Below are positions 51,010-64,000 of a DNA stretch of 64,000 nt, one piece after another. The stretch is from Guyparkeria halophila. GTDB taxonomy: Bacteria; Pseudomonadota; Gammaproteobacteria; Halothiobacillales; Halothiobacillaceae. A program made the translations under genes and the position numbers. The notes beneath the pieces are model-generated. The model ran no database searches, had not been told where the DNA came from, and worked only from the letters and a program-made list of their open reading frames with translations. The stretch spans positions 1,247,501-1,311,500 of the forward strand of contig NZ_CP140153.1 in assembly GCF_034479635.1 (NCBI RefSeq), in the 5' to 3' direction. Every line of letters begins with the position of its first letter. The first letter of the stretch is position 1.

Positions 51010-51675
51010 GTGACGGTCGGGACCTACATCCCGCCGCATTTCCGCCAGGACGACCCGGCGGGGCTGGCCGAGGTGGTGGAAAACCACCCGTTTGCCGCCC
51101 TGGTCCTCGCCGACGAACAAGGGCAGATGCCGTGCGTGCATCTGCCCTTTTTGCGTTTCGGCCAGCGCGCGCAGCCCGAGACCTGGCGGTTCGAGTCGCA
51201 CTTGGCGCGCGCCAACCCGGTCGCCGAGGCACTAGCCGACGGGTGCGAGCTGCCCGCCATCCTGATCTTCACCGGCCCGGATGCCTATGTCTCGCCGCGT
51301 TGGTATGTCGATGCCCGCGAGACCAGTGTGCCCACCTGGAACTACCAATCCGTGCACGTGCGCGGTCGGGTGCGCCTGGCCGGCGAAGGCGTGCCCGGTT
51401 GGCTCGACCGGCATCTGCACGACCTGATCGACACCCATCAGGCACGTATCGGTGGGGACCCGTTCGACTGGGATCACCTGCCGGAAAAGCAGATTGCCGG
51501 CATGAAGGCGGCGATCGTGGGGATCGAGTTGCTGCCCGACCGGATCGAGGGCATCGAGAAACTGGCGCAGAACAAGACGGCGACCGACCGTGATGGCGTG
51601 ATCGACGGGCTACACCGTCGCAATGATGCCGAATGCGAGGCCATGGCCGACCTGATGCGCTCGCGGGAGCCGTGA
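51010..51675 (+). CDS. PaiB-family FMN-binding protein
   Basis: The 221-residue protein matches the PaiB family: YIPPHFRQDD at the N-terminus, NHPFAALVLADEQG, AILIFTGPDAYVSPRWYVDARETSVPTWNYQSVHVRG, and the C-terminal EKQIAGMKAAIVGIEL and KLAQNK. Its fold is the FMN-binding split barrel. Bacillus PaiB is called a negative regulator of sporulation and proteases, but most members have no proven role. The start is GTG, three bases after ilvD, so it is co-transcribed with it. Confidence 0.88.
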   Translation: MTVGTYIPPHFRQDDPAGLAEVVENHPFAALVLADEQGQMPCVHLPFLRFGQRAQPETWRFESHLARANPVAEALADGCELPAILIFTGPDAYVSPRWYVDARETSVPTWNYQSVHVRGRVRLAGEGVPGWLDRHLHDLIDTHQARIGGDPFDWDHLPEKQIAGMKAAIVGIELLPDRIEGIEKLAQNKTATDRDGVIDGLHRRNDAECEAMADLMRSREP

Positions 51676-52680: not shown

Positions 52681-53463
52681 TCAGCGGCGGGCTTGCCCGT
52701 TATGCCGACGCCGCATGAGCAACCGGGGCAGCCGGCGCAGGAAGCCGGCGAGCAATCGCAGGTGCATCCAGATCAGCAGGCGGTTGTCCCGCCCGTAGCG
52801 AAAGTGCGAGACCCCGTCCTCCTCGGCATCGAAGTAGCGCACCGGGGCATCGACGTTCACCAGCGGCAAACCTCGCCAGGCCAGGCGCACGGCGGCCTCG
52901 GGGTCGAAGTCGAAGCGCCGCATCCAACGCGCGTCCTCCATCACCGCGACGAGATCGTCGATCGGATAGATCCGCATGCCGAACAGCGAATCGCCGATTC
53001 CCGCCCAGAGCGTTTCGAGATTCGCCCAGAAATTCGAGATCTTGCGTCCCTGAACGCGCAATGCCGGGGCATCGGCGGAGAACACGGGGCGGCCGAGGAC
53101 CAGTGCCTCGGGGTGCTCGCGCGCCGCCTCGACGAAGGCGCCGATGCACGCCGCGGGATGCTGTCCATCGGCATCCAGGGTCAGGGCATGGGTAAAGCCC
53201 GCCTGTCGTGCCGCCCGCACTCCCGTCAGCACGGCGGCACCCTTGCCATGGTTCGTCTCGTGACGTAGCAGCGTCACCGACTCGTGCTCGGCCACCAGAT
53301 GGGCTAAGCGTTCGACGGTCGCCGGGTCGCTGCCGTCGTCGACCACCCAGACGGGCAGTCCACCGCCTGCCGTCAAGGCAGAGCGCACCGTTTCGTCGAT
53401 ACGTGGCCCCGGGTCGAAGCAGGGGATCAGGATCAGGGGGTGAATTGGTGTCGGGGCGTTCAT
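52681..53463 (-). CDS. family 2 glycosyltransferase of the aryl-polyene cluster
   Basis: This 260-residue GT-A enzyme has VVDDGSDPATVERL and the metal-binding LDADGQHP motif. C-terminal basic residues suggest membrane association. In xanthomonadin and aryl-polyene clusters a GT2 often accompanies the acyltransferase and is thought to glycosylate the lipid anchor. It is the last gene of the reverse unit and overlaps the acyltransferase stop by four bases (ATGA). A frame open at 52700-53485 on the same strand is a shadow. Confidence 0.85.
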   Translation of the reverse strand: MNAPTPIHPLILIPCFDPGPRIDETVRSALTAGGGLPVWVVDDGSDPATVERLAHLVAEHESVTLLRHETNHGKGAAVLTGVRAARQAGFTHALTLDADGQHPAACIGAFVEAAREHPEALVLGRPVFSADAPALRVQGRKISNFWANLETLWAGIGDSLFGMRIYPIDDLVAVMEDARWMRRFDFDPEAAVRLAWRGLPLVNVDAPVRYFDAEEDGVSHFRYGRDNRLLIWMHLRLLAGFLRRLPRLLMRRRHNGQARR

Positions 53464-54233
53464 CGCGCGTCGAGCTCGGTGGCAAAGCGATTGCGCCAGG
53501 CGGTGGCGGCCCGGTGTGGGTTCGACTCGAGGAGGTCCGGATGCACCGCTAGGCGCTCGACCCGCAGTCGAACCGGTAGCTTGGGTAGCTGCCAGGCGGG
53601 CGTCTGCTTGGTCAGCAGGGGACGGTCGTAGCGAAAGACGAAGGCATGCAGGGGCGCGCCTGCCTGGCGGGCAAGCATGAACGGTGCCGGCTGGAAGGGA
53701 CCGAGTCCGGCCGCATCATCGCCCGGGCTGCGCGACCCCTCCGGGAACATCAGGACGTGGCAGCCGCTGCGGATGGCGGCACGTGCGCCGAGCATCATGT
53801 CGAGTGCGTGATCATTGGGCAGGTAACCCGCCAGCCGGGCGGGCAGGGCAAACAATGGGTTGCGCAGAAGCCCGGCGCGCATGACGCAGATGATGTTCGG
53901 GGCGTGTGCCAGCACGATCAGGGCGTCGAGCAGCGAGGGGTGGTTGGCCACGATTACGCCGGCCGGGGCACGCTTGAGGGTATCGAGTGGTCGGCTATCG
54001 ACCCGCAACGCCCCGATGGTGACCAGCCAGAGCCGGTAGGCGCGCATCGCGTGATGAATGATGCGACGCGCGGCGAGCCGGCGGGTGGGGCCGGGTAGCA
54101 ATGCCACCATCAGGGCCAGTGGCAGCCAGCCGATCAACAGCACGGCAAGACCGCCGTGGCCCAGTGGCACGGCGATCACCCGGTGCAGGGCGCGGGCCAG
54201 CGAACCGAGCCCGGTGCTCACAGCGCCGGCCAC
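53460..54233 (-). CDS. lysophospholipid acyltransferase-like protein of the cluster
   Basis: The 257-residue protein has the PlsC-type motifs NHPSLLD (His98, Asp103), a membrane segment around residues 29-47 and FPEGSRSPGDD. It should transfer an acyl group to a lysolipid or, in this context, load the polyene on a lipid. Its start overlaps the chorismatase stop by 16 bases. It resembles acyltransferases of xanthomonadin clusters. Substrate not shown. Confidence 0.85.
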   Translation of the reverse strand: MAGAVSTGLGSLARALHRVIAVPLGHGGLAVLLIGWLPLALMVALLPGPTRRLAARRIIHHAMRAYRLWLVTIGALRVDSRPLDTLKRAPAGVIVANHPSLLDALIVLAHAPNIICVMRAGLLRNPLFALPARLAGYLPNDHALDMMLGARAAIRSGCHVLMFPEGSRSPGDDAAGLGPFQPAPFMLARQAGAPLHAFVFRYDRPLLTKQTPAWQLPKLPVRLRVERLAVHPDLLESNPHRAATAWRNRFATELDAR

Positions 54234-55243
54234 ACGGTGTCGATCGCCGCCGTCCCGTCCCGGGGAAGGCGCAAGGTGGCCTCGATCTCGACCAGCAGGT
54301 CCTCACGACAGATGTCGGCCTGCAGGTAGACCTGTTCGACCCGGTCATCCAGCCAGCGGTCGATGCACTCGCGCACCGGTACCAGGTGGGCCGGATGACG
54401 CAGGTAGATCCGCAGGAGGCCGGTCTCGTCCCAGGCGAACCGGCGTGCCGGCGCGTCCCTTCGGGCGTTTGCCTGCTCGAGGACCGTCTCCAGGTTGGCG
54501 ATCGTCTCCTCGGTCTGCTTGACCACGTCGTCGTGGTGTCGGGTCTCGTGGCCAACGATCGAGGCGGTGCCCGAGACGAACAGCCAGTCGTGCCGCGCCC
54601 CGCTCGCCAGCGCCGCCCGCGCGAACAGGGGGCTTTTCGGACCGTAGCGCACAGGGTAGTTCCAGGCGCTGACCTGGCGGGGATTTTCGATCCGTTGGGT
54701 GGGCGTGGCCGCGGCCAGATAGAACAGACGCCCCTTGGTGCCGTCGGGGCTCCCCAGGGCACAGGCGGCCGGGGCCGAGGCCGACGGGGCCTGCCCGGCG
54801 TGATCGAAGGCCGCCGCGCGCCCCTGGTTGAACAGCCGATAGCGTTCCAGCCCGCTGCCGGCGTCGATGGCATTGATCTCGGGGAGGTAGTGCCAGACCC
54901 GCCAGAGGTGCGGAGTGCGCGCTCGGTCCAGCCGCTCGAAAAGCCGCCCGTAGGCGCTCTCCGCGCCGAGGGCCAGTCCCTCGGATTCGTCGATCGGTAG
55001 GTTGCCGAAGACCCAGCCATCCGCGTGGGCAAAGCATTCGCCCCCTTGCTGCTGAAGCGTGACCTCGCTCGGGGCGAGAAACACTTCCACCGGGTCGCTG
55101 TCGGCGTCGTCGAGCCGGGTGAGCGGCAGGGTGCCGATGCAACCGTTGCCTTCGCCGTGGTTGCTGTCGGGCAGGCAAAGCGCGGCCAGCAGCCGGTCGC
55201 GCGCCTCGTCGGGCAACCGAGATGGACGTGCCCGTGCCGTCAT
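54218..55243 (-). CDS. chorismatase (XanB2/FkbO/Hyg5 family)
   Basis: The 341-residue protein resembles the chorismatases that split chorismate into pyruvate plus a hydroxybenzoate or dihydroxycyclohexadiene acid; XanB2 makes the 3- and 4-hydroxybenzoate used for xanthomonadin and ubiquinone. Recognisable parts are LWRVWHYLPEINAID, LERYRLFNQGRAAAF, GTKGRLFYLAAATPTQRIENPRQVSAWNYP and LFVSGTASIVGHET. This gene points to the aryl starter of the pathway. It overlaps the halogenase-like gene by four bases. Confidence 0.85.
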   Translation of the reverse strand: MTARARPSRLPDEARDRLLAALCLPDSNHGEGNGCIGTLPLTRLDDADSDPVEVFLAPSEVTLQQQGGECFAHADGWVFGNLPIDESEGLALGAESAYGRLFERLDRARTPHLWRVWHYLPEINAIDAGSGLERYRLFNQGRAAAFDHAGQAPSASAPAACALGSPDGTKGRLFYLAAATPTQRIENPRQVSAWNYPVRYGPKSPLFARAALASGARHDWLFVSGTASIVGHETRHHDDVVKQTEETIANLETVLEQANARRDAPARRFAWDETGLLRIYLRHPAHLVPVRECIDRWLDDRVEQVYLQADICREDLLVEIEATLRLPRDGTAAIDTVWPAL

Positions 55244-56649
55244 CCGCGTGTGTCGGTTTCGCCGGACAGGGGTTGGACCTTGCGACGGTGGGCGCGCCAG
55301 TCGGCGAGTGACCGGCGCAACCGCGCGATCGAGGTGACGTAGTAGATCGCCTTGAGGATCCGGATCGAACGCCAGATCGGCGTGCCGCGATGGATGTCGG
55401 CGGCCAGCAGCGAGATCAGGGCCTCCTTGACGCGGAAGAAGTTGCGCGGGGCCATGAACAGGTCGCGCATCACCGGCTTGGTGATCCGGTAGATGAACCA
55501 GGAGAACTCCTTGGGGCCGCGACGCACCTGGCGGTCGTAGGCCTTCAGGGCCTGTTTCGCCCGGGCCGGCTCGCGCAGCACGGTGTCGATTGCATCGGCG
55601 CCGAACACGCCGCTCTGCATGGCGAGCATCACGCCGCTGGAGAATACCGGGTCGATGAACATGAAGGCATCGCCCACCAGGATGAAACGATCCCCGTGCG
55701 TGCGGTCGGCCGAGTAGGAGAAGTTGCCCGTGGCCTGCACGTCGCGCACCAACGAGGCATCGGCCAGGCGGCGCTTGAGTTCCGGGACGGTGTCGATGTT
55801 GTCGAACAGGAACTGCTCCAGGGAACGGCCCGCGCGGGTTTTCATGTGATACGGCCAGGTCACCATGCCCACGCTGGTTACCCCGTTCTTCAACGGGATG
55901 AACCAGAACCAGCCGTGGTCGAACCAGAACAGGGTGATGTTGCCCTCGGTCTTGCCCGGGTTGCGCTCGGCGTCGCGGAAATGGCCGAAGACCGCCGCGC
56001 TGTTGTGCTTGCGGGAGCGACGCTTCCAGCCGTGACAGTTGGCGAGGAAGGTGTCGCGGCCGGTGGCATCGGCGACGAAGGCCGTTTGCCAGATGCGCTG
56101 ATCCCCGTGCTCGTCGCGGGTGGTGACCGTGGCGTGGTACTCGCGCCCCCGCTCGTCGGTTCGGGGGGCATCATGAAAATCGATGTCGACGACCTTGGTG
56201 CCCTCGGAGGTGCGCGCGCCGTGGCGCTCGGCGTTGCGGAACAGGATGCGATCGAATTCCGCGCGCTCGACCTCGTAGGCCTTGGGCATCGACTTGTCCC
56301 AGGCATCGCCGAAGTTGTAGGGCTGGACGTGGTCGTGGGCCGGCGAGACGAACTCGGCCCCCCACTTGTCGATCCCGATCTGGGCGATCTCGTCGGCCAC
56401 GCCCAGGGTCTCGAACAGCTCGAGGTTGGCCGGCAGCAGTGACTCGCCGATGTGAAACCGCGGATGGTGTTCCTTTTCGACCATCACCACGTCGTGTCCC
56501 TTGCGCGCCAGCAGCGTCGACAGGGTCGAGCCGCCGGGCCCGCCCCCGACGACGAACACGTCGCAATAGCCGCCCTCTGCGACAGGCGGGGCGTGTTCGG
56601 TGCCCCTAAGGGGAAGATCGGGGGAGGCGGTAGCGTCCTGGGCGTGCAT
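55240..56649 (-). CDS. flavin-dependent halogenase-like oxidoreductase of the cluster
   Basis: From ATG at 56649 the protein has 469 residues. It has the FAD-binding GGGPGG loop (about 35-40), the FHIGESLLP segment (about 65-73) typical of phenol/pyrrole halogenases, a Lys in GIDKWGAEF (Lys95, likely equivalent to the halogenase lysine), and GWFWFIPL (246-253), the WxWxIP pattern of flavin halogenases, plus a GDAFMFIDPVFSSGVMLAM FAD segment. Some related monooxygenases share part of this pattern. In this position it could brominate or chlorinate the aryl head or the polyene, as xanthomonadins are brominated. The upstream ATG at 56733 is possible but not conserved. Confidence 0.75.
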   Translation of the reverse strand: MHAQDATASPDLPLRGTEHAPPVAEGGYCDVFVVGGGPGGSTLSTLLARKGHDVVMVEKEHHPRFHIGESLLPANLELFETLGVADEIAQIGIDKWGAEFVSPAHDHVQPYNFGDAWDKSMPKAYEVERAEFDRILFRNAERHGARTSEGTKVVDIDFHDAPRTDERGREYHATVTTRDEHGDQRIWQTAFVADATGRDTFLANCHGWKRRSRKHNSAAVFGHFRDAERNPGKTEGNITLFWFDHGWFWFIPLKNGVTSVGMVTWPYHMKTRAGRSLEQFLFDNIDTVPELKRRLADASLVRDVQATGNFSYSADRTHGDRFILVGDAFMFIDPVFSSGVMLAMQSGVFGADAIDTVLREPARAKQALKAYDRQVRRGPKEFSWFIYRITKPVMRDLFMAPRNFFRVKEALISLLAADIHRGTPIWRSIRILKAIYYVTSIARLRRSLADWRAHRRKVQPLSGETDTRG

Positions 56650-57031: not shown

Positions 57032-57787
57032 GTGGCATCGGACGACAGAGGAGGTGACCGCGCCGCGGTAAGCCGGGATGCATGGGGGCGGGAGCTGATC
57101 CGGCGGCTCACCTGCTGCTGGCTCCTGAAGGGGCTGGGAACCACCGTGTTGATGACCCTGTTCTTCATCGCCTATTTTCACCTGCTCAACTCGCCCATGG
57201 ACGAGCCCGTGGTCATGCCCGAAACCTGGGTCGACCGTCGGGTGCTGTTCGAGCCGATGTTTTTCTATCTGTATGCCTCGCTGTGGCTGTACGTCTCGCT
57301 GGTCCCGGCCCTGATGCCGGATCGGGCGACATTGGTGCGTTACGGGGTGGCGATTACTGGATTGTGTCTGGCCGGCCTGGCGGTGTTTCTGGTCTTTCCC
57401 ACCAGCATTGAGCGTGATCCGGGCCTGTGGGCGGGCGAGCCGGCCTTCGCCTGGTTGGCCGCCGTCGACAGCAGCGGCAACGCGTTTCCCTCCCTGCATG
57501 TCGCCAGTGCGCTGTTCAGCGCCTTCTGGATGGACCGTCTCATCCGGGCGATCGGCATGCCCGCCGTCTGGCGGGGGCTCTCGGCGCTCTGGGCGCTGGG
57601 TATCGCCTATTCCACCCTGGCCATCGGCCAGCATGTGTTCTGGGACGTGGTGGGCGGTGCGATCTTGGCCGCCGCCTTTGCCTGGCTCTCCGCGAACTGG
57701 TTGTCGGTACGACACCCGGCCGGGGTGCGAGCCACGCACGGCATGAGCCTCTCCCCCATTGACCGATCACCAGAGGTGGATCCATGA
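57032..57787 (+). CDS. PAP2-family membrane phosphatase of the cluster
   Basis: The 251-residue protein has about six membrane segments and the PAP2 motifs NAFPSLHVASALFSAFW and STLAIGQHVFWDVVGG, which carry the phosphate-binding and catalytic His residues. It may dephosphorylate an isoprenoid or phosphatidic-acid-like carrier used in lipid anchoring. GTG at 57032 follows GGAGTCAGG. It overlaps the ketosynthase start by four bases (ATGA). Confidence 0.82.
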   Translation: MASDDRGGDRAAVSRDAWGRELIRRLTCCWLLKGLGTTVLMTLFFIAYFHLLNSPMDEPVVMPETWVDRRVLFEPMFFYLYASLWLYVSLVPALMPDRATLVRYGVAITGLCLAGLAVFLVFPTSIERDPGLWAGEPAFAWLAAVDSSGNAFPSLHVASALFSAFWMDRLIRAIGMPAVWRGLSALWALGIAYSTLAIGQHVFWDVVGGAILAAAFAWLSANWLSVRHPAGVRATHGMSLSPIDRSPEVDP

Positions 57788-59016
57788 GCGCGCCGTCAGC
57801 CAGTCCGTCGTTGTCCCCGAGATTGCCCCGGCTCGGTATCACGGCCCTGACCGCCACCACGCCGGCCGGTCCGGGGCGGGGGGCCTTGCTGGCCGCGCTG
57901 CGTGACCGCCGCGGCGCGCTGGCGCCCTGCGACTTCCTCGACGTCGATCTGCCCACCTGGATCGGCCGCGTAACGGATCTCGAATCCGTCTCCCTCCCGG
58001 ATGATCTTGCCGACTACGACTGCCGCAACAACCGGCTCGCCGAACTGGGTCTGCAGCAGGACGGTTTTGCCGAGGCGGTTGCGGCGGCGGTCCAGCGCCA
58101 CGGCGCCGGGCGGATCGCCGTGGTCCTGGGCACCAGCACCTCGGGGATACTGCATACCGAATTGGCCTTCCGCGAACGCGACCCGGAAACCGGAGCGCTG
58201 CCCAGCCCTCTGCACTACGCGACCACGCACGAGTTGTCCTCCGCCCCCCGCTACGTGCGGCAACGCCTGGATCTCAAGGGGCCGGTCTATGCGGTGTCCA
58301 CCGCCTGTTCGTCCAGCGGCAAGGTGTTTGCCAGTGCGCAACGCCTGATTGCCACCGGAATGTGCGATGCGGTCGTGGTCGGTGGCGTCGACAGTCTCTG
58401 TCTGACCACCTTGTACGGGTTTGCCTCGCTCGAGTTGACCTCAACCGGGCCCTGTCGGCCGGGCGATGCGGCCCGGAACGGCATCTCCATCGGTGAGGCG
58501 GCCGGATTCGCCCTGGTCGAGGCGGACCGCGGCGAGGCGCCTCTCTGCCTGTTTGGTGTGGGCGAGAGCGTCGATGCGCACCACATGTCCTCGCCGCATC
58601 CCGAGGGGCGGGGGGCGCAACTGGCGATGCGCCGGGCCCTGGATGCCGCCTCGCTTGCGCCGGCATCGGTGGATTACGTCAACCTGCATGGCACGGCCAG
58701 CCGGGTCAACGATGCCGCCGAGGACCGCGCACTGGAGGCCGTCTTCGGGCGGGGGCAGGTGTGCTCGTCGACCAAGGGATGGACGGGGCATACGCTGGGC
58801 GCGGCTGGTATCACGGGCCTGGTTACCGGGGCTCTCGCCATCGAACACGGTTTCCTGCCCGGTACGCTCAACACCGAGCAGGTCGACCCCGACTTCACGG
58901 CCGACTACCTGCTGGGCAATCGTGATCGGCGCCCGACCCGGGTGATGACCAACTCGTTCGGGTTCGGCGGGAACAATTGCAGCCTGTTGTTCGGTCGGCC
59001 GGAGGAAAACGCATGA
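57784..59016 (+). CDS. beta-ketoacyl-ACP synthase of the aryl-polyene pathway
   Basis: The 410-residue ketosynthase has the catalytic triad Cys175 (STACSSSGK), His302 (NLHGTASR) and His336 (TGHTLGAAG), and a NSFGFGGNN C-terminal motif. The sequence is clearly different from the window's FabB. It probably elongates the aryl starter with malonyl units. It overlaps the chain-length-factor gene by four bases, so the two likely act as a heterodimer as in other aryl-polyene systems. Confidence 0.87.
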   Translation: MSAPSASPSLSPRLPRLGITALTATTPAGPGRGALLAALRDRRGALAPCDFLDVDLPTWIGRVTDLESVSLPDDLADYDCRNNRLAELGLQQDGFAEAVAAAVQRHGAGRIAVVLGTSTSGILHTELAFRERDPETGALPSPLHYATTHELSSAPRYVRQRLDLKGPVYAVSTACSSSGKVFASAQRLIATGMCDAVVVGGVDSLCLTTLYGFASLELTSTGPCRPGDAARNGISIGEAAGFALVEADRGEAPLCLFGVGESVDAHHMSSPHPEGRGAQLAMRRALDAASLAPASVDYVNLHGTASRVNDAAEDRALEAVFGRGQVCSSTKGWTGHTLGAAGITGLVTGALAIEHGFLPGTLNTEQVDPDFTADYLLGNRDRRPTRVMTNSFGFGGNNCSLLFGRPEENA

Positions 59017-59819
59017 AGCTATCGATCAGGGGGGTCGGTTTCGTCGGCGCCGCGCTGTCAGACTGGCGCGAGGCGGCGGATGCGTTGCGAACCGGGCGCG
59101 AGCCGGGTCACATGTCGGTCGCCGAACTGGGGCGGGCGCTCAAGGCCGATCGACTGCCGCGCACCGAGCGCCGCCGTGCCGGCAAGAGCACGCGACTGGC
59201 GATGACGGCCTGCTGGGAAGCGGTCGAGGCCGCCGGCCTCGATCCGGCCACCTTGCCGATGGTGTTTGCCTCGTCCACCGGCGATACCGAGGTGCTTACC
59301 CACAGTTGTGCCTCGCTCGCCGAGACGGACCGCATGATCTCGCCGATCCGCTTTCACAATAGCGTGCACAACGCGGCCTCGGGTTACTGGTCGATTTCGG
59401 TGGGGGCGCAGGAACCCGCCACCGCGATTGCCGCTCATCACGAGACCGCCGCGGCCGGACTGCTCGAGGCGGGGATGCAGGCCACCCTCGGGGATCGACC
59501 GGTGTTGCTGGTTGTCTATGACCTGCCGTTCCCCGAACCGATGCATCAGGCCGAACCAATTGCCGAGCCGCTCGCGATCGCCCTGGTGATCCAGTCGGCA
59601 CAGGCAGGCGATACCGACCGACTGGCCATTACGCTTAGCGCCGAAACCGACCGTGGCGATGCCGGCATGGCCGGCCCGGCCTGGGAACGGCTGCGCCGGG
59701 AGGTGCCCGCCGGGCGGCTCCTGCCATTGCTGGAGGCCATGGTCCGGAGAGAGCCTGGTCGGTTCCCGCTTGCACTGGACGAGACCAGCTACCTTGACCT
59801 GAGCTATCAACCGAAGTGA
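59013..59819 (+). CDS. ketosynthase-like chain-length factor
   Basis: The 268-residue protein resembles the N-terminal part of beta-ketoacyl synthases (PF13723 type): GVGFVGAALSDWREAADALR and TLPMVFASSTGDTEVLTHSC. At the position of the active-site Cys it has FHNSVHNAASGYW instead, and there is no C-terminal half with the two His residues. Such proteins occur next to the aryl-polyene ketosynthase and act as a non-catalytic partner. Confidence 0.8.
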   Translation: MKLSIRGVGFVGAALSDWREAADALRTGREPGHMSVAELGRALKADRLPRTERRRAGKSTRLAMTACWEAVEAAGLDPATLPMVFASSTGDTEVLTHSCASLAETDRMISPIRFHNSVHNAASGYWSISVGAQEPATAIAAHHETAAAGLLEAGMQATLGDRPVLLVVYDLPFPEPMHQAEPIAEPLAIALVIQSAQAGDTDRLAITLSAETDRGDAGMAGPAWERLRREVPAGRLLPLLEAMVRREPGRFPLALDETSYLDLSYQPK

Positions 59820-59832
59820 TGAATTCAAGTCC

Positions 59833-60576
59833 ATGAATAACAAGGAAACGGTGCAAAGCAAACTGGCGCTGGTCACCGGGGCCAGCGGCGCGATCGGGGC
59901 AGCCATCGCTCGCCGACTGGCCGCCGATGGATTCGACCTGTTGCTGCATGCCAACCGTAACGTCGAGCGTGTAGAGGAGCTGGCCGTGGAGTTGCGGACC
60001 GCGGGAGGCGAGGCCGAGGCGCTGACTTTCGATGTGACCGACCCCGAGGCCGTCGACGCGGTCCTGGCGCCGATCCTCGCCGAACGAGCGATACAGGTGC
60101 TGGTGAATAACGCGGGCATGCACGATGATGGCCCGCTGGCGGGGATGTCCGCGGCGCGCTGGCGTGCGGTGGTGGATGTCTCGCTCAATGGCTTTCACCA
60201 CGTGACCCAACCGGTGTTGCTGCCCATGATCCGCACCCGCTGGGGGCGGGTGATCAATATCGCTTCGGTCAGCGGGTTGATCGGTAACCGCGGCCAGAGC
60301 AATTATTCGGCGGCCAAGGCGGGGCTGATCGGTGCGACCCGGGCACTGTCCCGGGAGGTCGCCTCGCGAGGGGTGCTGGTCAACGCCGTTGCGCCGGGCC
60401 TGATCGAGTCGCCGATGAGCGCGGGTTCCGCCGCGGCGGATGGCATCAAGGATCACATCCCCATGCGCCGGGCCGGTCGACCGGAGGAGGTCGCCGAGGT
60501 GGTCGGTTTCCTGGCCGGCGAGGGTGCGGCCTATGTGACCGGGCAGGTGATCGCCGTCGATGGCGGCATGACGTGA
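59833..60576 (+). CDS. 3-oxoacyl-ACP reductase of the cluster (FabG-like)
   Basis: The 247-residue short-chain dehydrogenase has TGASGAIGAAIA (14-25) for the cofactor, NNAG (92-95), the catalytic Ser145 (NIASVSG) and Tyr158/Lys162 (YSAAKAG), and a C-terminal GQVIAVDGGMT. It reduces the 3-keto group after each condensation. Its place directly after the ketosynthase and chain-length factor makes it part of the polyene pathway rather than primary fatty acid synthesis. Confidence 0.9.
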   Translation: MNNKETVQSKLALVTGASGAIGAAIARRLAADGFDLLLHANRNVERVEELAVELRTAGGEAEALTFDVTDPEAVDAVLAPILAERAIQVLVNNAGMHDDGPLAGMSAARWRAVVDVSLNGFHHVTQPVLLPMIRTRWGRVINIASVSGLIGNRGQSNYSAAKAGLIGATRALSREVASRGVLVNAVAPGLIESPMSAGSAAADGIKDHIPMRRAGRPEEVAEVVGFLAGEGAAYVTGQVIAVDGGMT

Positions 60577-60631: not shown

Positions 60632-61354
60632 ATGAAGCCAATCCATGCCAGGGCCGGCGGCTACCCCGTCATGCTCAGTTTCGACGACGGCCCGCGGCCC
60701 GGGTCGACCGAACGGATTCTCGACGTGCTGGCCGGGCGTGGCCTGCAGCCGGACCGCCCGTTGCGGGCGGCGTTCTTCACGCTTGCGCATAACCCACCGG
60801 GTTGGCTGGCCCGCCGCCTGCTGTTCGCCCCCTACGAGATCTGGACGGAGAAGGGGAGCCTCGTTCGTCACCCGGATCTGGCCCGCCGGATCATCGAGGA
60901 GGGGCACTGGCTGGGCAATCACGGTGCCACGCATTTCTGGCCGCGCTGGCCCTGGTATCGAAACCCGCGGCGGGTGGAGGCGCAACTGCTGGAATGGGAG
61001 CGGGTGGCGGATGCCGTGGTGCCCGCCTGGCGAGGGCGATCGGCACGCCTGGCGCGTGCGCCTTATCTGAGCCGGACTTCCGCCTGGCGCGCCGCCACGG
61101 CACGGACCGGTTTTACCGAGCTTGGGGGCATGACGACGGGGGATGCCGATCCGCGCGCCGCCTGCGACGATGTCCGCCGCACGCTGTTGACTCGGCTGGA
61201 GCGCGAACGTCGCCTCGCCGAGCAAACCAGCCGACCCGTGCTCCTGATCTTCCATGATATCCGTGAGCTGACCGCCGAGTGCCTCGATGGGTGGCTGGAC
61301 GCGATCAGCGCGGCGGGGTATGCCCTGACCGACTTCGACCCCGACCGACTCTGA
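60632..61354 (+). CDS. polysaccharide deacetylase (NodB-type) of the cluster
   Basis: The 240-residue protein has a NodB-homology fold: LSFDDGPRPGSTERIL with the two Asp residues at the N-terminus and EEGHWLGNHGATHFWPRW with the His pair. Such enzymes remove N- or O-acetyl groups from sugars. It has no signal peptide, so it may act on a cytoplasmic glycolipid precursor together with the glycosyltransferase. It is the last gene of the forward unit and converges with the dehydratase. Confidence 0.82.
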   Translation: MKPIHARAGGYPVMLSFDDGPRPGSTERILDVLAGRGLQPDRPLRAAFFTLAHNPPGWLARRLLFAPYEIWTEKGSLVRHPDLARRIIEEGHWLGNHGATHFWPRWPWYRNPRRVEAQLLEWERVADAVVPAWRGRSARLARAPYLSRTSAWRAATARTGFTELGGMTTGDADPRAACDDVRRTLLTRLERERRLAEQTSRPVLLIFHDIRELTAECLDGWLDAISAAGYALTDFDPDRL

Positions 61355-61824: not shown

Positions 61825-64000
61825 TCAGGGCTGTTTTGTCGTCGGTGTCGAGCGATCGGACGGGGCGGCGAAGATCGCGGCCAGCAGCCAGGCCGCGAGC
61901 GCCCCCGGGGCCACCGTTGCCCCGATGGCCTGCAGCACGGGCACCGATGAGAATGCCAGCACACCGAAGGCCGTGACGGTGGTGGTCGTCGCCAGGGTCA
62001 GGGAGGCGAGGGTGCGCGCATCCAGTCCGTTGCTTTGGCCTGGCGGGGGCTGGAAAAACAGGGCGTAGTTCGAGCCGATGGCCGCGACCAGCAGCAGACC
62101 GACCAGGTGCAGCAGGGTCAGCTGTCCGCCAAACAGCGCGTGCCCGGCCACCACCAGCAGGACCGCGAGCGTGATCGGCAGCAGCGTGCGCAACGTGCGC
62201 CGAGGGCTTGCCTGCACGAGCAGGAGCAACAGGACGATCGCCGCGGCGCCCGCCACGGAGACCACCAGTGTGGTGTTGAGATAGCGGGCGTAGAGCCGGT
62301 TCGATTCTGCCAGCAGGTCGATCAGCACGGCGGATTCGACCGGGTCGATCGCCTCGCCCAGGGCCGCCAAGTCGCTGGGGCTGGCGGGATCGGTGTACAG
62401 GGTGATGACGGCCGCCGCGTGACCCGCTTTCCCGTCGGATGGCAATTGCCCGGCGACCGCGAGCCAGAGGGGCGTGCCCTCGAGGTCCGCGAGTCCGATC
62501 GCCGCCGCGTCTTTCTGGCGCGCCACGTCATCGACGAAGCCCGGCAGGCGGTCGGGTGATACCGGCAGGTCGGTGAGCGCCTGCGCAAGACGTTGCTCGA
62601 GTTCCTCCCCACTCGGCAGGGCCGCCTGTCGCGCGTGCTGCGTTGCCAGCGAGGGCAGGGTTTCGGTCGGCGAGCGATAGCCGGCGAGCAGACCGTTCTC
62701 GACGCGCTGATCCAGTATCGCGGTGACGCGCTCGGCGGCGCGTAGTGCCGCCTCGCGATCGTCGCCCTTCACGACAACCAAGTGGCGTGGGCTCGGGGAG
62801 CCGAGTTGCTCGCGCAGGCGGGTATCGGTGGCTTCCAGGCCGGGGTCGATCGGGGCAAGCCCGGAAAGCGTGTCTCGCCAGAGGCCGTCCTGCTGGAAGA
62901 CGAGCACGGCCACGGCCAGTGCGCCCAGCAACACGGCAACCGACCGCAGTCGCCGCAACCCGGCGACCGGACGCTCGAGCCGTCGACCCAGCCCGGCGAT
63001 GTCGGCGCGGGGCAGCCGTGGCCCCAGGATCGGCAGCACATAGCGGGTGACCAGCGCCGCGGTGAGCAGGCCGGTCATGGCGTAAAGGCCGATCTGCATC
63101 AAGCCCGGAAAGCCGGAGAAGAGCAGGGCGGCGAAACCGATCAGCGAGGTGATCAGGCCGAGGCGCACGGTGGGCCAGTAGTCCCGAAGCCAGGCGTGCT
63201 GCCCGGCCCGTTGCCCGGCCCTGTCCACGCGAGACTGCCGGGACTGGACAAAGTAGTAGATGCTGTAATCGATCGCCTCGCCCATCAGGGCGGTACCAAA
63301 ACCGATCGTGATGCCGTGGACCTCGTCGAAGCCCAGTCCGACCATGGCAATCCCGACGGCTACCCCACTGCCGACTGGCAGCAACCCGGCCAACAGCACG
63401 GGCAACGAGCGATAGGCGAGCAGCAGCACCAGGGTCACCAGGATCACGCTGATGGTCGTGAACAGGGTGACCTCGGCCTTGATGTGGTCCCGCGCCTCGA
63501 TGGCAAACATCGGTGAGCCGGCGATCACGAGCCGCAGGGAGGGATCGATGTCGCCGCGGATCGTGTCGAAGGCGGCCTGGATGCGTTGGGCGGCACGGGC
63601 CAGCCCGTCGGTGTCCGAGCCCGACGCACGGGCCTGCGCGACCAACAGCATGGTCGATTGATCGGAGGACGACCAGACGCCACAGCAGCGAGCCGGGCCG
63701 GCCCGGCCGGCTTGGGAATCGTGTCGGTCGAGCAGCGCCAGCATCTCCCCGGTGGGATCGCGCGGGAAGAGCTCGCGGGTGATGTCACCCAGGGGCGAGT
63801 TGAGCTCGCGTATCGACTCGCCGATCGCCCGGGTCAGCCCCTCGACCGAAAACCGCTCGGCATCGACCGCCGGGCTCAACAGATAGCGGTGCTCGAACAG
63901 GAACTGCCGGGCCTGCTCGTGGTGGGCCCGATCGCCGTTTTGCACGGCGGCGAAGGCGGGGTCATCGACCAGGTCGGCATGCAGCTGCCGGCTGGCCTTG
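61825..64000 (-). CDS. MMPL-family exporter of the pigment cluster (partial at 5' end)
   Basis: The reverse gene continues past the right edge; about 725 residues are visible and the frame is open to 64000. The protein has two hydrophobic blocks with RND-like helices: GITIGFGTALMGEAIDYSIYYF in the first and LLVAAIGSNYALFFQPPPG in the second. Two large periplasmic loops are present. In aryl-polyene and xanthomonadin clusters an MMPL protein is thought to move the polyene lipid to the outer membrane. The N-terminus is missing. Confidence 0.88.
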   Translation of the reverse strand, partial: KASRQLHADLVDDPAFAAVQNGDRAHHEQARQFLFEHRYLLSPAVDAERFSVEGLTRAIGESIRELNSPLGDITRELFPRDPTGEMLALLDRHDSQAGRAGPARCCGVWSSSDQSTMLLVAQARASGSDTDGLARAAQRIQAAFDTIRGDIDPSLRLVIAGSPMFAIEARDHIKAEVTLFTTISVILVTLVLLLAYRSLPVLLAGLLPVGSGVAVGIAMVGLGFDEVHGITIGFGTALMGEAIDYSIYYFVQSRQSRVDRAGQRAGQHAWLRDYWPTVRLGLITSLIGFAALLFSGFPGLMQIGLYAMTGLLTAALVTRYVLPILGPRLPRADIAGLGRRLERPVAGLRRLRSVAVLLGALAVAVLVFQQDGLWRDTLSGLAPIDPGLEATDTRLREQLGSPSPRHLVVVKGDDREAALRAAERVTAILDQRVENGLLAGYRSPTETLPSLATQHARQAALPSGEELEQRLAQALTDLPVSPDRLPGFVDDVARQKDAAAIGLADLEGTPLWLAVAGQLPSDGKAGHAAAVITLYTDPASPSDLAALGEAIDPVESAVLIDLLAESNRLYARYLNTTLVVSVAGAAAIVLLLLLVQASPRRTLRTLLPITLAVLLVVAGHALFGGQLTLLHLVGLLLVAAIGSNYALFFQPPPGQSNGLDARTLASLTLATTTTVTAFGVLAFSSVPVLQAIGATVAPGALAAWLLAAIFAAPSDRSTPTTKQP

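Follow-up and report, generated by a model that had tools for sequence, protein, structure and literature searches.

Does the yellow-pigment cluster of the halophile Guyparkeria halophila encode an enzyme that would place a halogen on the aryl head group of its product? The question is raised by two overlapping genes in a window of 64,000 nucleotides (the whole stretch that was analysed, positions 1,247,501 to 1,311,500 of contig NZ_CP140153.1; coordinates below count from its first letter unless a locus or genome is named). The upstream gene encodes P0001, which resembles flavin-dependent halogenases (FDHs), and the downstream gene encodes P0002, a chorismatase. An earlier note, made from the letters alone, had described a four-base overlap of the two genes and three halogenase features in the upstream protein, all of which are present as it had given them:

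55240..56649, minus strand: flavin-dependent halogenase-like gene, 469 amino acids (P0001), from sequence matches, tree, fold and motifs
54218..55243, minus strand: FkbO/Hyg5-family chorismatase gene, 341 amino acids (P0002), with Hyg5-type Cys312 and Gly225, from profiles and PDB matches
55240..55243, minus strand: ATGA, the four-base overlap of the halogenase-like gene stop and the chorismatase gene start, from the sequence
56365..56367, minus strand: codon of Lys95, within GIDKWGAEF (residues 92-100), from sequence and alignment
56431..56457, minus strand: FHIGESLLP, residues 65-73, from the sequence
55891..55914, minus strand: GWFWFIPL (GWxWxIP motif), residues 246-253, from sequence and alignment
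55633..55659, minus strand: FIDPVFSSG (FxxPxxSxG motif), residues 331-339, from sequence and alignment

Because of the overlap, the two proteins are probably made together. The explanation that we prefer places both genes in an aryl-polyene pigment cluster, with P0001 acting as an FDH on the aryl head of the product, and as a whole we regard it as likely.

Assignment of P0001 to the FDH class is well supported by sequence comparison and by a predicted structure. Its first seven sequence matches in the PDB are all halogenases, namely CndH, FasV (8zop), ChlB4, Mpy16 (5buk, so named in the entry title), CmlS, RadH and PltA; the next are the uncharacterised 3nix and then Bmp2 (5bva/5bul). The catalytic lysine is essential in FDHs, and the motifs GWxWxIP and FxxPxxSxG are marks of these enzymes. 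In order to follow these residues among relatives, we defined a clade of rows whose best query was P0001 at a tblastn identity of at least 42%; at 99.5% identity, 114 clade rows reduce to 112 distinct members and 20 other rows to 18. Nine short translations (the longest of 188 amino acids, and including L024 and the TAG-holding L104 and L157) were left out before alignment, as were near-identical rows. Lys95 is invariant in all 112 distinct relatives, down to 43% identity, and aligns with the lysine of CndH, SgcC3, CmlS, FasV, ChlB4 and Mpy16; it is missing from the LodB-like L145 and L185 and from the weak row L183. Equally invariant, each in 112/112 distinct members, are G246, W247, W249, I251 and P252 of GWxWxIP and F331, D333, P334, F336, S337 and G339 of the second motif, which takes the form FxDPxFSxG.

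The earlier note had proposed a phylogeny as a check on its idea of a flavin halogenase-like protein, and the idea is borne out by the tree, the fold ranking and the invariant lysine and motifs. In a midpoint-rooted maximum-likelihood (ML) tree of 53 of the 134 rows, the P0001 clade (36 rows, support 100/99) nests among characterised FDHs, within CmlS, CndH, SgcC3, FasV, ChlB4 and Mpy16. L145 and L185 fall outside, several branches are long, and the tree includes no geranylgeranyl reductase or QhpG reference. Non-halogenase references are thin (L145 and L185) because the QhpG and LodB models gave no match at either cut-off in 185 genomes, and 16 of 28 QhpG-model places were FDH genes already found in the genome search for the P0001 clade. 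Among viral contigs, three stretches fitted a pattern and none of them was a relative.

The AlphaFold2 model of P0001 has a mean predicted local distance difference test (pLDDT) score of 83.4, with values below 50 at residues 329-335, in the FxxPxxSxG loop. Of the ten best fold matches listed for this model (Z 33.6-42.0), nine are FDH entries and one is 3nix, which is uncharacterised; they are followed in the same list by the best monooxygenase at Z 32.4 and a geranylgeranyl-reductase-like entry at Z 31.2. A common fold alone is no demonstration of function.

What would the partner gene contribute? The earlier note had called it a chorismatase, and profile searches agree: P0002 matches the FkbO/Hyg5 N-terminal domain of Pfam above its cut-off (1.2e-29), and its PDB sequence matches are Hyg5-type entries and FkbO. 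Its match to TIGR04444 has an E-value of 1e-64, at 218.8 bits against a cut-off of 325. Cys and Gly residues determine the 3-hydroxybenzoate outcome in chorismatases. Cys312 and Gly225 of P0002 align with a Cys and a Gly in 5ag3, which we take to be Hyg5, and FkbO has Ala at both positions; 5a3k differs from 5ag3 by a change from Cys to Ser at the Cys312 position. Among relatives with a letter at these places, Cys312 is found in 62/62 and Gly225 in 63/63. Judged by these residues, P0002 would be a chorismatase of the Hyg5/XanB2 type, which forms 3-hydroxybenzoate. The related ArcB is reported to give both 3- and 4-hydroxybenzoate in vitro (PMC3949708), and the titles of papers on XanB2 state a role in ubiquinone supply. 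Since no UbiC chorismate lyase was found in the host genome (with a positive control in E. coli), P0002 may also supply 4-hydroxybenzoate for ubiquinone.

The ratio of nonsynonymous to synonymous substitution rates (dN/dS) against five relatives is 0.13-0.18 for P0001 and a looser 0.24-0.37 for the chorismatase, the ratios being rough where dS is near or above 1, as several values are. The low values for P0001 indicate that its gene is under purifying selection. Named relatives that are 85-87% identical (L004-L008) are recorded as Guyparkeria, Halothiobacillus or Halothiobacillaceae. As a separate observation, the chorismatase shares no more than 54-66% identity with its counterparts in five close relatives, as against 85-87% for the adjoining FDH, a markedly unequal pair of rates for overlapping genes.

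Is the FDH gene tied to the pigment cluster beyond this one genome? Among the named loci (the best 80 of 359 relatives), a chorismatase gene lies 3' of the FDH gene on the same strand in 63, within about 140 bases in 62 of these and at 1.4 kb in one. Of the remaining loci, 14 are without a chorismatase in the stretch covered and three end at a contig edge (L010, L046 and L082); in L010, a chorismatase-only profile picks up the beginning of that gene at the contig end. Because chorismatase is next in 63/80 loci and the motif residues are invariant in 112/112 members, both the pairing and the motifs are beyond chance. The 14 FDH loci without a chorismatase (L015, L018, L034, L050, L057, L058, L060, L061, L064, L067, L069, L073, L078 and L083) bear nearly all Comamonadaceae genus names, and the source of their aryl starter calls for an explanation.

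We then searched 369 genomes of the class, with limits of E <1e-100 for the clade, 1e-10 for chorismatase and 1e-60 for ketosynthase, and found them in 35, 66 and 84 genomes, respectively. All 35 clade genomes hold the ketosynthase (31/35 at 1e-100; Fisher p 4e-26, a value computed over related genomes that are not independent), and 27 of the 35 hold the chorismatase. The clade is missing from 19 of the 46 genomes that have both ketosynthase and chorismatase, some of the 19 being incomplete. The clade search, which reported matches to E 1e-40, gave eight more with E-values of 1e-41 to 1e-57 and 32-35% identity, which were counted outside the clade, and two of the clade-less genomes (G196 and G256) hold a relative at 34-35% instead. 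Fifteen loci from 14 of the 19 genomes could be compared: eight have ligase, ketosynthase and chorismatase together and no FDH match at E 1e-3, two carry a distant relative within the cluster (at 23% and 28%), and five have a partial cluster. In these samples the FDH gene is tied to the pigment cluster yet dispensable, and is therefore an optional tailoring gene: the clade occurs only with the ketosynthase (35/35) yet is missing in 19/46, a pattern that fits halogenation.

Within Guyparkeria, 7 of 11 sampled genomes carry FDH, chorismatase and ketosynthase, and loss of the FDH alone was not seen among the 11. G372, at 99% completeness, is without all three together; G371, G373 and G375 are 64-85% complete, and the chorismatase of G373 sits at a contig end. 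Because the genus has cultivated halophiles and 7/11 sampled genomes carry the gene, it is a clean test case. It can now be tested whether halogenated aryl polyenes are formed by halophilic sulfur oxidisers, as has been reported for Thialkalivibrio, and the presence or absence of the clade across otherwise similar clusters offers a ready comparative design.

The genes around the pair are as follows:

53460..54233, minus strand: acyltransferase (PF01553) of the cluster, from Pfam
52681..53463, minus strand: family-2 glycosyltransferase of the cluster, from Pfam
57032..57787, plus strand: PAP2-superfamily protein, oriented divergently to the halogenase-like gene, from Pfam
57784..59016, plus strand: ketosynthase, NF006618 at 524 bits (cut-off 407), taken as the aryl-polyene ketosynthase, from NCBIfam
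58977..59819, plus strand: ketosynthase-like partner (Ketoacyl-synt_2), probably of chain-length-factor type, with an in-frame ATG at 59013, from Pfam and translation
59833..60576, plus strand: 3-ketoacyl-acyl carrier protein reductase (FabG type), from Pfam and NCBIfam
60632..61354, plus strand: polysaccharide deacetylase-like protein, from Pfam
61825..63999, minus strand: MMPL-type exporter, running past the window end, from Pfam

Beyond the window end (locus L207) lie genes for a LolA-like protein, a lipid-A-type acyltransferase, a FabA-like dehydratase, an adenosine monophosphate (AMP) ligase, two acyl carrier proteins (ACPs) and a second ketosynthase. The xanthomonadin-type set is present, with chorismatase, ketosynthase and partner, ketoreductase, dehydratase, ACP, ligase, acyltransferase, glycosyltransferase, LolA and MMPL components; judged by its gene families, the cluster is a xanthomonadin/arcuflavin-type aryl-polyene pigment set. 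No head-group methyltransferase was found among the scanned cluster proteins, one of which, a protein of 232 amino acids whose gene (L207:6180-6878, minus strand) is flanked by those for the AMP ligase and an ACP, has no Pfam match. The host genome is a single contig of 2.45 Mb, and a protein search with P0001 against it returns P0001 itself as the sole match. A putative flavin mononucleotide (FMN)-binding protein (51010-51675, plus strand; FMN_bind_2, 7.8e-42) is encoded some 1 kb away from the gene for the glycosyltransferase, and nothing ties it to the cluster.

We propose that the chorismatase would convert chorismate to 3-hydroxybenzoate, as suggested by its Hyg5-type residues and by the characterised relatives ArcB and XanB2. 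Going by their families, the AMP ligase and the ACPs beyond the window would load 3-hydroxybenzoate as the starter; its extension to the polyene would fall to the type II ketosynthases together with the ketoreductase and the dehydratase. P0001 would function as a two-component FDH. A host flavin reductase would supply reduced flavin adenine dinucleotide (FADH2), which with O2 and halide would form hypohalous acid (HOX), and Lys95 would transfer the halogen (either chlorine or bromine) to the phenolic ring, which is probably bound to an ACP at that stage. Carrier-bound substrates are used by CndH, SgcC3, PltA and Bmp2. From the sequences one may fairly predict a halogenated head group, with the balance tipping in its favour, and nothing in the analysis favours bromine over chlorine. 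More broadly, the clade might represent the halogenase of chlorinated or brominated aryl polyenes in halophilic sulfur oxidisers (compare the chloronatronochrome of Thialkalivibrio), and a one-residue deletion before the lysine might mark aryl-polyene-specific FDHs that act on an ACP-bound head; this wider proposal we consider possible rather than likely.

Several observations weigh against a halogenating P0001. The Pfam name is weak evidence because Trp_halogenase (84.4 bits) scores barely higher than FAD_binding_3 (83.5), also matches a second host flavoprotein that is UbiH-like by eye (22.3 bits, cut-off 21), and has matches in 5 of 14 control genomes. None of the NCBIfam halogenase models reaches its cut-off among the best 25 of 41 matches, and the CmlS equivalog NF033113 scores 189.5 bits against 900. 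In the fold list CmlS, the lowest FDH listed, exceeds the top-scoring monooxygenase by only 1.2 Z, and two other FDHs, PltM and CtcP (Foldseek ranks 21-40), are absent among the 50 fold matches listed. The genome has a single Flavin_Reduct gene (G000:C1:2156307-2156741), and it lies far from the cluster. One residue just before the lysine is missing in 112/112 clade members and present in 18/18 others, and aryl-polyene flavoproteins of the 3nix group retain the lysine as well. Finally, Azoarcus BH72 has an annotated halogenase gene beside its chorismatase gene, yet its arcuflavin, from LB cultures at 0.5% NaCl, was interpreted, without nuclear magnetic resonance, as a heptaene that carries no bromine, and the study found no other derivatives (PMC3949708). 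A rival reading is a geranylgeranyl-reductase-like protein or a plain monooxygenase with no link to halogenation: TIGR02032 (122.2 bits, cut-off 158.8) and QhpG (151.4 bits, cut-off 240) give scores for it, both below their cut-offs, and monooxygenases come close behind in the fold list. The LodB model also scores below its cut-off (95.8 against 400). The earlier note had set such a placement against its own proposal; the hidden Markov model (HMM) scores and the fold ranking give no sign of it and, together with the motifs, disfavour it, as do the tree and the seven halogenases heading the PDB sequence matches, and we hold it to be very improbable.

P0001 could also be a former halogenase that now hydroxylates, or otherwise oxidises, the aryl head or the polyene, with the FDH motifs kept and the product unhalogenated. 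The deletion before the lysine throughout the clade speaks for this, and many carriers belong to genera such as Hydrogenophaga, Dechloromonas and Azonexus, which are mostly freshwater bacteria. It would also account for Azoarcus, in which an annotated halogenase gene goes with a pigment that was taken to lack bromine after growth in a medium containing chloride; against it, the Azoarcus head is described as derived from 3-hydroxybenzoate with one methyl group, and no extra hydroxyl is named in the available text (PMC3949708). Lys and both tryptophans of GWxWxIP are kept in 112/112 clade members, whereas the LodB-like relatives are without the lysine, and we consider a hydroxylase unlikely. A halogenase that is specific for bromide or dependent on conditions, so that the pigment is halogenated only with bromide or in a given growth state, would be a form of the explanation we prefer, not its opposite, and would reconcile Azoarcus with Xanthomonas. 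NaCl is the sole halide salt listed for the Azoarcus medium in that text (PMC3949708), and Xanthomonas clusters, which contain a halogenase gene, are described with pigments carrying 0-2 Br (PMC3691225). Against it stands chloronatronochrome, chlorinated by its name, which a cited title reports together with natronochrome from the sulfur oxidiser Thialkalivibrio versutus (PMC3368412); by this report, such pigments can be chlorinated. On this evidence a restriction to bromide or to particular conditions seems doubtful, and an FDH acting on the aryl head remains the explanation we favour.

The lysine alone failed as a divider of halogenases from other aryl-polyene flavoproteins, since it is present in the group of 3nix (Cytophaga hutchinsonii) and Pseudoalteromonas P0003. 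This group is the nearest to the clade in the tree, by a weak join (93/73); it is 28-29% identical to P0001, and five of its six rows are without the leading Gly of GWxWxIP. P0003 sits in an aryl-polyene-like Pseudoalteromonas cluster with ketosynthase and reductase genes and an aromatic amino acid ammonia-lyase. This second group of FDH-like flavoproteins, which includes 3nix, also contains L139:3977-5227, L140:3971-5221, L162, L163 and L164, and adjoins a ketosynthase match in two genomes (G140 and G162).

How does a halogenated product agree with published pigments? A Lysobacter cluster is described as having no halogenase gene and a pigment without a bromine pattern (PMC3691225). Steroidobacter 35Y produces a xanthomonadin with two bromines, whose formula reads C27H28Br2O3 in the running text but C27H28Br2O2 in a table; the complete gene set of the pathway is credited to it, and the main text names no halogenase (PMC5979037). 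The natronochrome gene or genes were yet to be identified in a 2011 genome paper (PMC3368412). In the literature on xanthomonadin-type clusters, as far as its available text goes, we found no experiment linking the halogenase gene to the halogen. The earlier note had expected a brominated product if the host lives in saline or bromide-containing water. Its enzyme class stands, and so does the saline host, by inference from Guyparkeria being a halophilic sulfur oxidiser; strain SCN-R1, a relative of the host, was grown at 1 M NaCl (PMC6504805), and the main text of two Guyparkeria papers contains no pigment terms (PMC9032823, PMC6504805). The expectation of bromine is opposed by Azoarcus BH72, whose cluster is the only one that we found outside Xanthomonas-like bacteria with both an annotated halogenase gene beside the chorismatase and a studied pigment.

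Among characterised enzymes, CndH (3e1t) and SgcC3 have the lysine of P0001 and both of its motifs, in the forms GWFWYIPL and FVDPVFSSG; they come from a myxobacterial and an actinobacterial pathway, respectively, and differ from P0001 by one extra residue before the lysine. Identity to CndH is 34% over 368 aligned residues (Z 37.2), and identity to a Streptomyces globisporus C-1027 protein, recorded as a tryptophan 7-halogenase and presumably SgcC3, is 36%. Compared by published description, the arcuflavin cluster, like that of the host, has an annotated halogenase beside a chorismatase, and it also encodes an acyltransferase, a glycosyltransferase, a ketosynthase and a reductase. Its consecutive loci are arcA (halogenase), arcB (chorismatase), arcC, arcD (acyltransferase) and arcE (glycosyltransferase); unlike the host, it has arcC, for an MltA-interacting protein, between the chorismatase and the acyltransferase, and its non-brominated product is reported as joined to a dialkylresorcinol (PMC3949708). 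The Xanthomonas xanthomonadin cluster likewise combines a chorismatase (XanB2), a type II polyketide synthase and a halogenase gene, as far as its description goes (PMC3691225). P0001 belongs to a known kind, and annotated halogenase genes are already known in xanthomonadin-type clusters.

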